Origin: Roseimaritima multifibrata
GTDB taxonomy: Bacteria > Planctomycetota > Planctomycetia > Pirellulales > Pirellulaceae
Direction of reading: 5' to 3'
DNA length: 64,000 nucleotides
Assembly: GCF_007741495.1 (NCBI RefSeq)
Contig: NZ_CP036262.1
Span: 248,001 to 312,000 of the forward strand
Shown here: positions 38,301-41,135 of the stretch, piece by piece
How the letters are laid out: every line of letters starts with the position of its first letter
Position numbering within the stretch: position 1 is the stretch's first letter
Notes under the pieces: generated by a model
Database searches by the model: none
What the model was told of the DNA's origin: nothing
The model's input: only the letters and a program-made list of their open reading frames with translations
Translations under genes and position numbers: made by a program

Positions 38301-38563
38301 AGTACCACTGACCGACTGGGAGCGGTTACCATTGCCTGCATCGCAGTCTGCGTGGATTGGAAATGGCTGCGCGTTTCGCTAAAATCTAATCATGCGTTAA
38401 GTAATTTGGTATTCGCTGAACCTTCGTCTTGACCGACGTATTACCAACGATCAACTGGGGCGACACAAGCGTGCTTGCTTCACGCACGCGTTGTCTGCGT
38501 TCCTCGTTTGCTGCGGTTAAGGCAAGTTCGAGTGGTCGACTTTTTGCTGCCTTTTCTAGAGAC

Positions 38564-40051
38564 ATGATGATGGCTCGCCTTAAAACTTATACCGAAGCGA
38601 CTTGGACTGCTGAAACCGATAAAGTGATTTCGGTACTGAGTGTCACCGAAGCTTCGCGGCAACTTGGAATCAGTCCCCGAGCTATCAGCAAGCGTCGGAA
38701 AGACTTAGAACTCAATTCCTCGCCCCGTGTTAGTGCCATTCGTTGGACGAAAAAGCGGGATAGTATTCTTGGCACGATGAATGACAAGGATGCAGCGGAG
38801 AAGATTGGCACGAACCAATACCATGCACGCAAACGGCGGATCGAACTTGGCATTCCTGCGTATCAGCAGCCCCCTGTTCCGCTATCCCAGGCGGTCCGGC
38901 GACCGCCTCATCGCTGGACGGCCAAGGAAGATCGATTGTTGGGGACGCAACCCGATCCGGTACTCGCTGAACGTTTTGATCTGGCTCCGACCGTCGTCAC
39001 TCAACGTCGACACGAACTTGGCATCGCTCCCTCACGGCCGGGAGCACCCATCGAGTGGACCAAGGGGATGCTGAATCTGTTGGGCGACGTCCCCGACGGA
39101 TATCTGGCTGCCGAGTACGAGATCAGCCACATCGTCGTGAAGGTGCGGCGAATCCAAGAAGGGATTCTTCCCTACGGCAAAAAGTATATGGACACGGAAC
39201 CGGATTTGCCGAGGCACGTGATTTCACAGATTGGTAAGACCCCTGACAAGGTTATTTCGGACAAGTTCGGTGTCTCGCGACATCTGCTTCGAATCTATCG
39301 CGCCTTGCACGGCATTCCTTGTGCGGAAGCTCGACCATGGGCGCTGCACAAATGGACGCGTAAGGATGAAGCGTTGTTGGGCACAAAAAGTGATGGAGCC
39401 GTTGCGATCGAACTGAATATCGCCCGCAACCAAGTTCGAACCCGGCGCGTCCGTATGGGAATTCCTGCTTTTGGAGCGGCAGCATCCATTCGTTGGTCGG
39501 CAAAACGGATTGCACAGCTGGGGACCGAGCCCGACGCGACGCTCGCTCGCATGTGGAATTATTCACAAGGGGCTATCCGTGCGAAAAGGGAAGAATTGGG
39601 GATCGCTAAGTGTGAAAAATCCGAACATGAATTGACGCCGGAACAGACCGCTCGCTTGGGAACCCTCTCCGACGTGGCTCTTGGCAAAGAGTGGGGTGTT
39701 AGCTCTTCCCTTGTCCGTCAACGTCGGATCGCACAAGGGATCCGGCCGCAAAAGTCGGGCAAGAAATTCAACTGGACCGATGCCAAACTGAAACTTTTGG
39801 GCGTCATTCCCGACGAGGAACTTGCGGTCCGGCTTGGAGTCTCCTATCAGTTTGTTGTGGCGAAGCGGAGCGAGTTGAAAATCCCGGCAAAACGTCGCCC
39901 TCGAAAAGTCGATTGGTCCAACGAGAAGATCGCGGCGCTCCTGGGAACCATGAGCGACTACAAGCTAGGGGCAAAACTTGGCGTCACCAACGGAGCGGTG
40001 CGATCGCAAAGGCTGAAGCGAAAGATCCCCGCCTACAAGCCAACCTCTTAA
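38564..40051 (+). CDS. protein of ten tandem helix-turn-helix-like repeats
   Basis: A 495-residue protein from ATG 38564 (ATGs at 38567 and 38570 are equivalent). It is almost wholly ten divergent repeats of about 41 residues, joined by 6-17-residue linkers, at residues near 12-50, 60-100, 117-157, 164-204, 214-254, 263-303, 310-350, 356-396, 403-443 and 450-491. The consensus is W-[ST]-x5-LLGT-x2-D-x2-LA-x4-GVS-x3-V-x2-RR-x2-LGIPA. A Trp-containing first helix followed by a tri-helical HTH whose recognition helix has V and paired basic residues resembles Myb/homeodomain-like DNA-binding units. Basic linkers support nucleic acid binding. No catalytic, membrane or signal segment is visible. 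Function unknown; a sequence-specific modular DNA-binding protein is inferred. Confidence 0.85.
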   Translation: MMMARLKTYTEATWTAETDKVISVLSVTEASRQLGISPRAISKRRKDLELNSSPRVSAIRWTKKRDSILGTMNDKDAAEKIGTNQYHARKRRIELGIPAYQQPPVPLSQAVRRPPHRWTAKEDRLLGTQPDPVLAERFDLAPTVVTQRRHELGIAPSRPGAPIEWTKGMLNLLGDVPDGYLAAEYEISHIVVKVRRIQEGILPYGKKYMDTEPDLPRHVISQIGKTPDKVISDKFGVSRHLLRIYRALHGIPCAEARPWALHKWTRKDEALLGTKSDGAVAIELNIARNQVRTRRVRMGIPAFGAAASIRWSAKRIAQLGTEPDATLARMWNYSQGAIRAKREELGIAKCEKSEHELTPEQTARLGTLSDVALGKEWGVSSSLVRQRRIAQGIRPQKSGKKFNWTDAKLKLLGVIPDEELAVRLGVSYQFVVAKRSELKIPAKRRPRKVDWSNEKIAALLGTMSDYKLGAKLGVTNGAVRSQRLKRKIPAYKPTS

Positions 40052-40142: not shown

Positions 40143-41135
40143 ATGCTTATCACTCCTGAATTCAATCGAGTCAATCGCCGCTGGGCGATTGGGATTTCCC
40201 TTGTTGTGGCTGCAGGGATCGCCGTGCTGGCGATCTCGCAACCCTGGTTCCTGGCAGCATTGCCTTTGCCCGGGCTGGTCTATTGGTGGTTGCGTCGCAA
40301 GACGGTGCGACGCTTAAGTATCATGGCGGCCCCCTTCCCCGAATCTTGGGAGGCGACCTTGCAGGCTCAGGTCCCTTACTTTCGCATGCTGGATGAAAGC
40401 CAGCGTGAAGGTTTTCGCAATCGCATGAAAATCTTCTTGGACGAAGTCGCCATCACAGGGATTCGAACCGATGTCGACGAGGCGACGCGTGTGTTGGTCG
40501 GGGCCAGTGCGGTCATCCCCATTATGGGGTTGGAGGGTTTTGAATATGCGGGGCTGGGAGAGGTCTTAATTTATCCAGGAGCTTTTGGCGCCGATTATCA
40601 AACCGACGGTGTGGGAGATAAAAATACGTTGGGGATGGTCGGAGTGAATCACCTGAGCGGCGTGATGATATTGTCCAAGCCCTCTTTGCTCGCGGGCTTT
40701 GCCAATCCGGGTGACAAAGAGAATGTGGGGATCCACGAATTTGCACATTTGGTCGACAAAGCGGATGGCGAAGTCGACGGGGTGCCTGTGTCGGCTTCGC
40801 TTGAGGTTGCCGAGCCATGGTTGAAATGGGTTGGCCAAGAACTGAAATCGGAGGGGACGCGTGCGGGGATTCGCGATTATGCGTACACCAGTGAAGCCGA
40901 ATATTTCGCGGTATTGTCGGAGTACTTTTTCGAAAAACCAGCTCTGTTGCAGGCGAAGCATCCAGAGTTGTACACGATGCTTCGCAAAATGTATCACCAA
41001 GATCCAAAGCGTCTCTTTCGCGGACGCTCAATGCGTCGAGGCCGAGTGCAACGCAACGCCCCCTGCCCCTGTGGAAGCGGCAAAAAGTATAAGAAGTGTT
41101 GCCTCCGCCGCTCAAAGCAAGGGCTGCCCAAATAA
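40143..41135 (+). CDS. MtfA-like zinc peptidase with N-terminal membrane helices and C-terminal SEC-C motif
   Basis: A 330-residue protein. Two hydrophobic segments (about 14-32 and 35-50) are followed by an MtfA-type (M90) domain: ILDE-like FLDEVAITGI, ASAVIPIMGLEGFEYAGLGEVLIYPGAF and the zinc site HEFAH at residues 198-202, with a later Glu in SEAEYFAVLSEYFFE. MtfA is a peptidase that in E. coli also binds the repressor Mlc to adjust glucose uptake. The last 16 residues, NAPCPCGSGKKYKKCC, are a complete SEC-C zinc motif like that of SecA, not normally part of MtfA. The fusion suggests recruitment to SecB, ribosomes or nucleic acid. It lies 91 bp downstream of the HTH-array gene on the same strand. 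Confidence 0.88.
   Translation: MLITPEFNRVNRRWAIGISLVVAAGIAVLAISQPWFLAALPLPGLVYWWLRRKTVRRLSIMAAPFPESWEATLQAQVPYFRMLDESQREGFRNRMKIFLDEVAITGIRTDVDEATRVLVGASAVIPIMGLEGFEYAGLGEVLIYPGAFGADYQTDGVGDKNTLGMVGVNHLSGVMILSKPSLLAGFANPGDKENVGIHEFAHLVDKADGEVDGVPVSASLEVAEPWLKWVGQELKSEGTRAGIRDYAYTSEAEYFAVLSEYFFEKPALLQAKHPELYTMLRKMYHQDPKRLFRGRSMRRGRVQRNAPCPCGSGKKYKKCCLRRSKQGLPK

Follow-up and report, generated by a model that had tools for sequence, protein, structure and literature searches.

GcrA contains one helix-turn-helix domain of the type considered here, plus an RNA polymerase-binding part, and Myb proteins contain about three repeats; other multi-unit proteins exist as well. TALE repeats are 33 to 35 residues long and have two helices and paired variable residues. 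According to its record, the D5 protein of phage T5 binds DNA, and both DNA replication and late transcription depend on it. An excerpt of one study (PMC8624392) places D5 among the virion proteins of a T5-like phage, and an excerpt of another (PMC1564403) describes NUMOD modules as usual behind the GIY-YIG domain in homing endonucleases. We analyzed a gene of Roseimaritima multifibrata that lies in a 64,000-nt stretch of contig NZ_CP036262.1 (positions 248,001 to 312,000; this whole stretch is called the window). The known kind to which this array family belongs is the tandem helix-turn-helix DNA-binding protein.

The window protein has ten units and no further domain that we found, versus one unit in GcrA and about three in Myb proteins. 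By analogy with TALEs and other modular DNA readers, a tandem array could read a long site, but the array is unlike TALE in having strongly diverged, 39-residue, three-helix units and in giving no Pfam TALE match at E values of ≤10. The PHROG 323 profile (D5-like transcriptional regulator) matched all nine ten-repeat proteins scanned, with 5.9e-23 for the window protein and 1.2e-29 for the best of them; these scores of arrays sum over repeats. T5 D5 itself matches PHROG 323 at 1.2e-71, and a direct comparison of T5 D5 with the arrays showed no similarity (-0.3 and 5.0 bits with the repeat models and -1.0 bits with the profile of group A, defined below); any kinship would be remote. Since T5 D5 is not matched by the repeat models, the relation between the arrays and D5 is one of profile likeness and not of membership. 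The two proteins also differ in length (255 residues for D5 versus 495) and in setting, as there are no phage (replication) genes among the eight window neighbors scanned. In the GIY-YIG homing endonucleases of Vibrio phages, the nuclease domain is followed by five copies of the repeat unit, three of them clear and two weak; unlike these enzymes, the window protein has no nuclease domain (Pfam, E ≤ 10) and has more units. NUMOD was searched for with Pfam in the window protein and in its phage relative P0004, and no match was obtained; any relation to these modules would be weak.

A first-pass annotation had proposed a 495-residue open frame for this gene, and the frame is present as proposed (Table 1). 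There are three possible ATG start codons, at 38564, 38567, and 38570; upstream of 38564 the frame stays open to a TTG at 38429, and the alignment of orthologs begins at approximately 38570. The 7.2-Mb genome has a single copy of the ten-repeat gene, and the predicted pI of the protein is 10.3, making it strongly basic. The composition of the gene (GC, 0.552; GC3, 0.581) is like that of its eight neighbors (GC, 0.53 to 0.58; GC3, 0.58 to 0.68), and no tRNA was found within the window. On these grounds, recent insertion of the gene from a foreign source was rejected.

A repeat model covers the protein from end to end with ten units, each with a core of 39 residues and the pattern W[ST]......LLGT..D..LA...GVS...V..RR..LGIP, at a start-to-start spacing of 46 to 57 residues. 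We scored each unit with a model made from the other nine and compared the score with those of 200 shuffles of the same unit. The held-out scores of units 1 to 10 were 12.8, 35.6, 43.0, 22.9, 15.6, 35.2, 43.9, 36.6, 34.5, and 31.6 bits, and the best shuffle of each unit (200 shuffles each) reached only 3.1 to 8.3 bits. Chance or composition was therefore rejected as the origin of the repeats (12.8 to 43.9 bits held out versus ≤8.3 bits in shuffles). All ten of the divergent tandem repeats claimed in the first-pass annotation were thus recovered by the model and the held-out test. The length assigned to them, about 41 residues, gave way to the 39-residue core, and the Trp assigned to every repeat is absent in unit 5 and replaced by Leu in unit 8.

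Table 1. Coordinates in the window of the array gene and its repeats (helix-3 residues are given with the number of ten-repeat proteins that keep them)
Feature	Position	Strand	Basis
Gene for ten-repeat helix-turn-helix protein, 495 aa	38564..40051	+	Open frame, aligned orthologs
Repeat 1, residues 13-51, most degenerate	38600..38716	+	Repeat model; held-out score, 12.8 bits
Repeat 2, residues 60-98; helix 3 Tyr27 and Arg30, 9/9	38741..38857	+	Repeat model, ten-repeat proteins
Repeat 3, residues 117-155; Thr30, 9/9	38912..39028	+	Repeat model, ten-repeat proteins
Repeat 4, residues 164-201; Lys30 and Ile34, 9/9	39053..39166	+	Repeat model, ten-repeat proteins
Repeat 5, residues 215-252, without Trp; Arg26, 9/9; Tyr32, 8/9	39206..39319	+	Repeat model, ten-repeat proteins
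Repeat 6, residues 263-301; Gln28, 8/9	39350..39466	+	Repeat model, ten-repeat proteins
Repeat 7, residues 310-348	39491..39607	+	Repeat model
Repeat 8, residues 356-394	39629..39745	+	Repeat model
Repeat 9, residues 403-441; Gln27, 8/9	39770..39886	+	Repeat model; predicted structure of repeats 9-10
Repeat 10, residues 450-489	39911..40030	+	Repeat model; predicted structure of repeats 9-10

The structure of the whole protein was predicted with AlphaFold2 from the window protein and seven orthologs. The model contained 30 helices, grouped exactly into ten triplets, with a mean pLDDT of 77.8; the only parts with values below 50 were the start and four linkers, which are flexible, and the pTM of 0.31 makes the model uninformative on how the units are arranged. 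Repeats 9 and 10 modeled alone formed two helix triplets with a pLDDT of 87.5. A structural aligner placed the GcrA DNA-binding domain at the top of the matches of these two repeats (Z, 5.3; rmsd, 1.4 to 1.6 over 39 residues; 28% identity); one unit superposes on that domain (Z, 5.3; rmsd, 1.4; 39 residues), and the GcrA matches include the domain bound to methylated DNA. Reb1-Ter, Mos1, FapR, and resolvase were among the next matches. With the whole model, the aligner returned CoREST SANT, spliceosomal Myb repeats, and c-Myb-DNA complexes (Z, 3.9 to 5.4), and one array unit superposes on Myb-type domains too. The earlier statement that known regulators have one or two units was too strict, given the roughly three repeats of Myb proteins and the existence of other multi-unit proteins; Myb-DNA, Reb1, and SNAPc chains are among the structural matches. 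Overall, GcrA, Myb/SANT, and transposase helix-turn-helix domains are the closest solved domains, with weak scores: all Z values are ≤5.4, a range in which mere resemblance is possible. Foldseek searches of the PDB with both models (the whole protein and repeats 9 and 10) gave nothing at E ≤ 0.001, and a sequence search of solved structures with the window protein gave no match.

By Pfam, the window protein alone matched helix-turn-helix families only, all below the curated cutoffs, with HTH_AsnC-type as the best match (24.9 bits versus a cutoff of 27) and no other domain at E ≤ 10, in agreement with the proposal that no further domain is present. HTH_AsnC-type was matched in all nine ten-repeat proteins, the window protein included, at 1e-10 at best. 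Because this match in nine of nine proteins adds to otherwise ambiguous Z values, we regard the predicted assignment of the repeats as tri-helical helix-turn-helix units as sound. The helix-turn-helix character claimed for the repeats was thus borne out by the AlphaFold2 triplets and the Pfam matches, and neither structure prediction nor profile comparison indicated units of another kind. A search of a defense library gave a single weak match, mad1, at 7.8e-05. Neither Pfam nor NCBIfam has a family of its own for bare tandem arrays, no description of such arrays was recognized in searches of open-license full-text literature, and helix-turn-helix terms do not occur in PMC7070040. Arrays that consist of helix-turn-helix units alone, as many as ten in a protein, are real and, to the extent of these searches, undescribed.

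We searched for relatives in planctomycete genomes, plasmids, phages, and viral contigs, and a general genome collection was covered by one two-pattern scan. With the window protein as the query, matches were found in 5 of 60 genomes (all genome counts of matches include the window's own genome) and were not found in the three other genomes of its genus. The repeat model gave at least one match in 33 of 241 genomes of the family (17 of 68 genera) at E ≤ 1e-4, in 8 of 296 genomes of the order at E ≤ 1e-5, with only one or two matches per genome outside the family, and in 24 of 246 genomes of the phylum at E ≤ 0.001, mostly as a single unit. Relatives with other numbers of repeats, for which the first-pass annotation had suggested looking, do exist, with shorter arrays in other planctomycetes: among 48 frames from the loci analyzed, 13 had six units, 9 had ten, 7 had five, 5 had four, eight and seven units were found in 4 frames each, 3 had one, 2 had nine, and 1 had two. 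Besides the window protein, ten-repeat proteins occur in ten genomes (L050, L085, L086 to L090, L092, L093, and L114). In L085, which is 93% like L086, nine units are visible and the contig end cuts the array. Pairwise identities of the ten-repeat proteins are 40 to 59%, except for one pair at 93%. Strains known to carry an array gene include Neorhodopirellula pilleata Pla100 and Rhodopirellula solitaria CA85. The computed dN/dS ratios were 0.03 to 0.21 across seven related array pairs, one of them saturated (dS, 4.2) and one ten-repeat pair having the value of 0.21; these ratios suggest purifying selection on the array genes of these pairs.

Some relatives combine the unit with other sequences. 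Two genomes that belong to one planctomycete genus carry a lone unit after an HTH_17 (excisionase-like) domain (L039:8505-9464, L040:1937-2998, and L043:2506-3342; the domain was assigned by Pfam in L039 and L043). A single unit follows a NUMOD3 motif at L019:1486-2181, and another stands at the end of a frame at L005:1489-1845 that by eye is like a recombinase tail and has no Pfam match. A six-repeat array at L051:9457-10410 has a C-terminal tail of four NGRATS repeats and two partial ones.

Conservation within the units was compared in nine ten-repeat proteins (group A) and in eight shorter arrays with five repeats each (group B). The counts exclude L085, repeat 1 of group B, and 13 of the 21 arrays aligned for group B, which were near-duplicates or of uncertain orthology. 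Arg33, the last arginine of helix 3, is present in 90/90 cells of group A and 40/40 of group B, and Asp15 is present in 89/90 and 40/40, respectively. Units correspond one to one across species: the single best match of a unit was the unit of the same number in 526 of 720 comparisons in group A and in 215 of 280 in group B. As a measure of specificity, we used the ratio of within-ortholog to between-repeat entropy at each position. In group A, the mean ratio was 0.587 at exposed helix-3 positions 26, 27, 28, 30, 31, and 34 versus 0.769 at ten other exposed positions, and 1 of 8008 relabelings was as extreme, the position classes having been set after group A was viewed. Group B, which served as a check, showed a modest difference (0.66 versus 0.823), which 362 of 8008 relabelings equaled or exceeded. 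In group A, some buried and helix-2 positions (2, 3, 6, 7, 10, 16, 22, and 32) were equally repeat-specific; thus, the signal is wider than contacts and is partly structural. Residues that differ between units and are kept in at least eight of nine species include Tyr27 and Arg30 in unit 2, Arg26 and Tyr32 in unit 5, Gln28 in unit 6, and Gln27 in unit 9. This retention of repeat-specific helix-3 residues between species is what would be expected if a long site were read by the units one by one, each in a fixed way.

On balance, we favor a model in which the ten GcrA/Myb-like helix-turn-helix units make up a selective regulator or architectural protein that binds double-stranded DNA at a long composite site, and we infer DNA binding, specificity, and a regulatory role for the array protein. 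Ten tri-helical units with short flexible linkers between them would contact double-stranded DNA, the third helix of each unit sitting in the major groove. The arginine common to all units would hold the DNA backbone, and residues that vary between units yet are kept between species would contact bases. Jointly, the units may recognize or wrap a single composite site, much longer than the sites of ordinary regulators, which would make the protein very selective.

The same features could be read as those of a nonspecific or weakly specific DNA-coating or nucleoid-type protein whose ten units lie side by side and bring about compaction or broad repression. The strongly basic character of the protein fits such a role, as does its closest annotated profile, the one for phage D5-like regulators, with the DNA-binding, replication, and late transcription functions noted for T5 D5; the gene is also single copy and has no shared partner. 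However, a coating protein would have no need of ten different, fixed units, and repeat-specific helix-3 residues are kept between species at ~45% overall identity. Moreover, the gene is absent from most relatives, the three other genomes searched from the genus among them. We therefore consider a coating function unlikely.

Of the 97 plasmid records in which protein searches detected the unit, 87 are from Pseudomonas; there are 20 units in pQBR103, 19 in pPma4326F, 18 in a Pseudomonas rhodesiae plasmid, and 9 in each of two others. The array regions of pQBR103 and pPma4326F (L132:5859-6995 and L129:4320-5822) are alike in gene order (phospholipase D family, array, hypothetical, DUF808). Ten phage records contain the unit; a query of viral contigs with the window protein found no relative. 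The plasmid array genes whose annotation was examined are called hypothetical. A Vibrio phage protein has a GIY-YIG nuclease domain at residues 2 to 85 (Pfam, 8.7e-11) followed by repeat units. Matches to this form span >90% of its length in six records, which belong to four phages, and part of it in three further records. In phage eugene, the gene for the array-bearing nuclease precedes the terminase gene, and its relative 1.193.O has a different gene, annotated IPR018306, at that position; such a swap is as expected for a homing-endonuclease hot spot. GIY-YIG homing endonucleases with an array lie before the terminase gene in two Vibrio phage loci (L123:2722-3723 and L128:2725-3765), and the terminase of 1.187.O and 1.193.O is annotated as three pieces.

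The strongest hint that the arrays may target DNA comes from these nuclease fusions. A broader proposal, which we make tentatively and hold to be possible but somewhat doubtful, is that there is a previously undescribed bacterial class of modular DNA readers with 4 to 10 bare GcrA-like units, each with a fixed specificity, that together read one long composite sequence. The same module would serve on planctomycete chromosomes, on Pseudomonas megaplasmids, and in phage homing endonucleases, and site length would rise with the number of units. If each unit reads its own bases, bacteria would have in these arrays a natural system for modular DNA recognition. Fixed-length orthologs, shorter variants, and phage nuclease fusions are available for comparison, so the relation of site length to unit number is directly testable.

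Alternatively, the array could be a targeting part that derives from a mobile-element nuclease or plasmid system, either a homing endonuclease stripped of its nuclease or a plasmid-borne regulator, and that is now chromosomal and regulates or defends against such elements. Array units behind GIY-YIG domains in Vibrio phages and standalone arrays on Pseudomonas megaplasmids are in line with such an origin, as is the patchy distribution in planctomycetes, where 33 of 241 genomes of the family, the window's own included, have any match. Nevertheless, no nuclease or integrase was found among the eight window neighbors scanned, the window has no tRNA, the base composition equals that of the neighbors, and the ten-repeat architecture is kept across genera, like a long-settled gene; we find this origin improbable. 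SANT and spliceosomal Myb repeats serve protein or RNA assemblies and are among the structural matches (CoREST SANT being one), but a protein- or RNA-binding scaffold of SANT-like tri-helical units is very improbable given the basic, invariant helix-3 arginine, the Pfam and PHROG matches to DNA-binding families, and the occurrence of the unit in homing endonucleases.

No binding site was found in the flanks of ten ten-repeat genes (~600 bases upstream and 500 bases downstream), where only one short match, between two of the genes, stood out. The best flank match between two genes, 27 bases in L088 and L090, is a dispersed repeat, CCCTCGCTCACGCTTCGGG, which is present in 25 of 60 genomes searched and absent from the window genome. 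Because of this dispersal and this absence, it is not the site of the array and was rejected as a conserved operator. With ≤1 mismatch, the repeat reaches up to 482 copies per genome, often as inverted pairs in the listed places (for example, in G011, G030, and G051).

Partner genes were sought by clustering the 502 open frames (arrays included) of 46 array loci, and no partner family that names a pathway was shared widely enough among them. The largest nonarray cluster comprised protein kinases, found in 8 of 46 loci, of different build and ~30% alike between genera (four of the eight were checked with Pfam); such kinases are common in planctomycetes. Other clusters were of the DUF1559 type (5 loci) and the DUF1501 type (4 loci), a methyltransferase lies near the array in 4 loci of two genera, and clusters in ≤3 loci include GlnE, sulfatase, secretion, and ABC proteins. 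In five loci of one genus (L091:8254-10638, L097, and L105 to L107), a RecQ-type helicase frame lies 0 to 78 bases from the array on the other strand; the assignment comes from the Pfam domains RQC and HRDC in L091, one of the five. The eight window neighbors scanned (DUF1501, DUF5658, PQQ, an unassigned protein, an M90 peptidase with SEC-C, SBBP, DUF1559, and PepSY) do not suggest a role for the array. The M90 (MtfA-type) peptidase with its SEC-C motif (40143 to 41135) shares the strand of the array gene and begins 91 bases downstream of it, and a homolog lies ~3 kb from the array in L090; MtfA of Escherichia coli binds the repressor Mlc.
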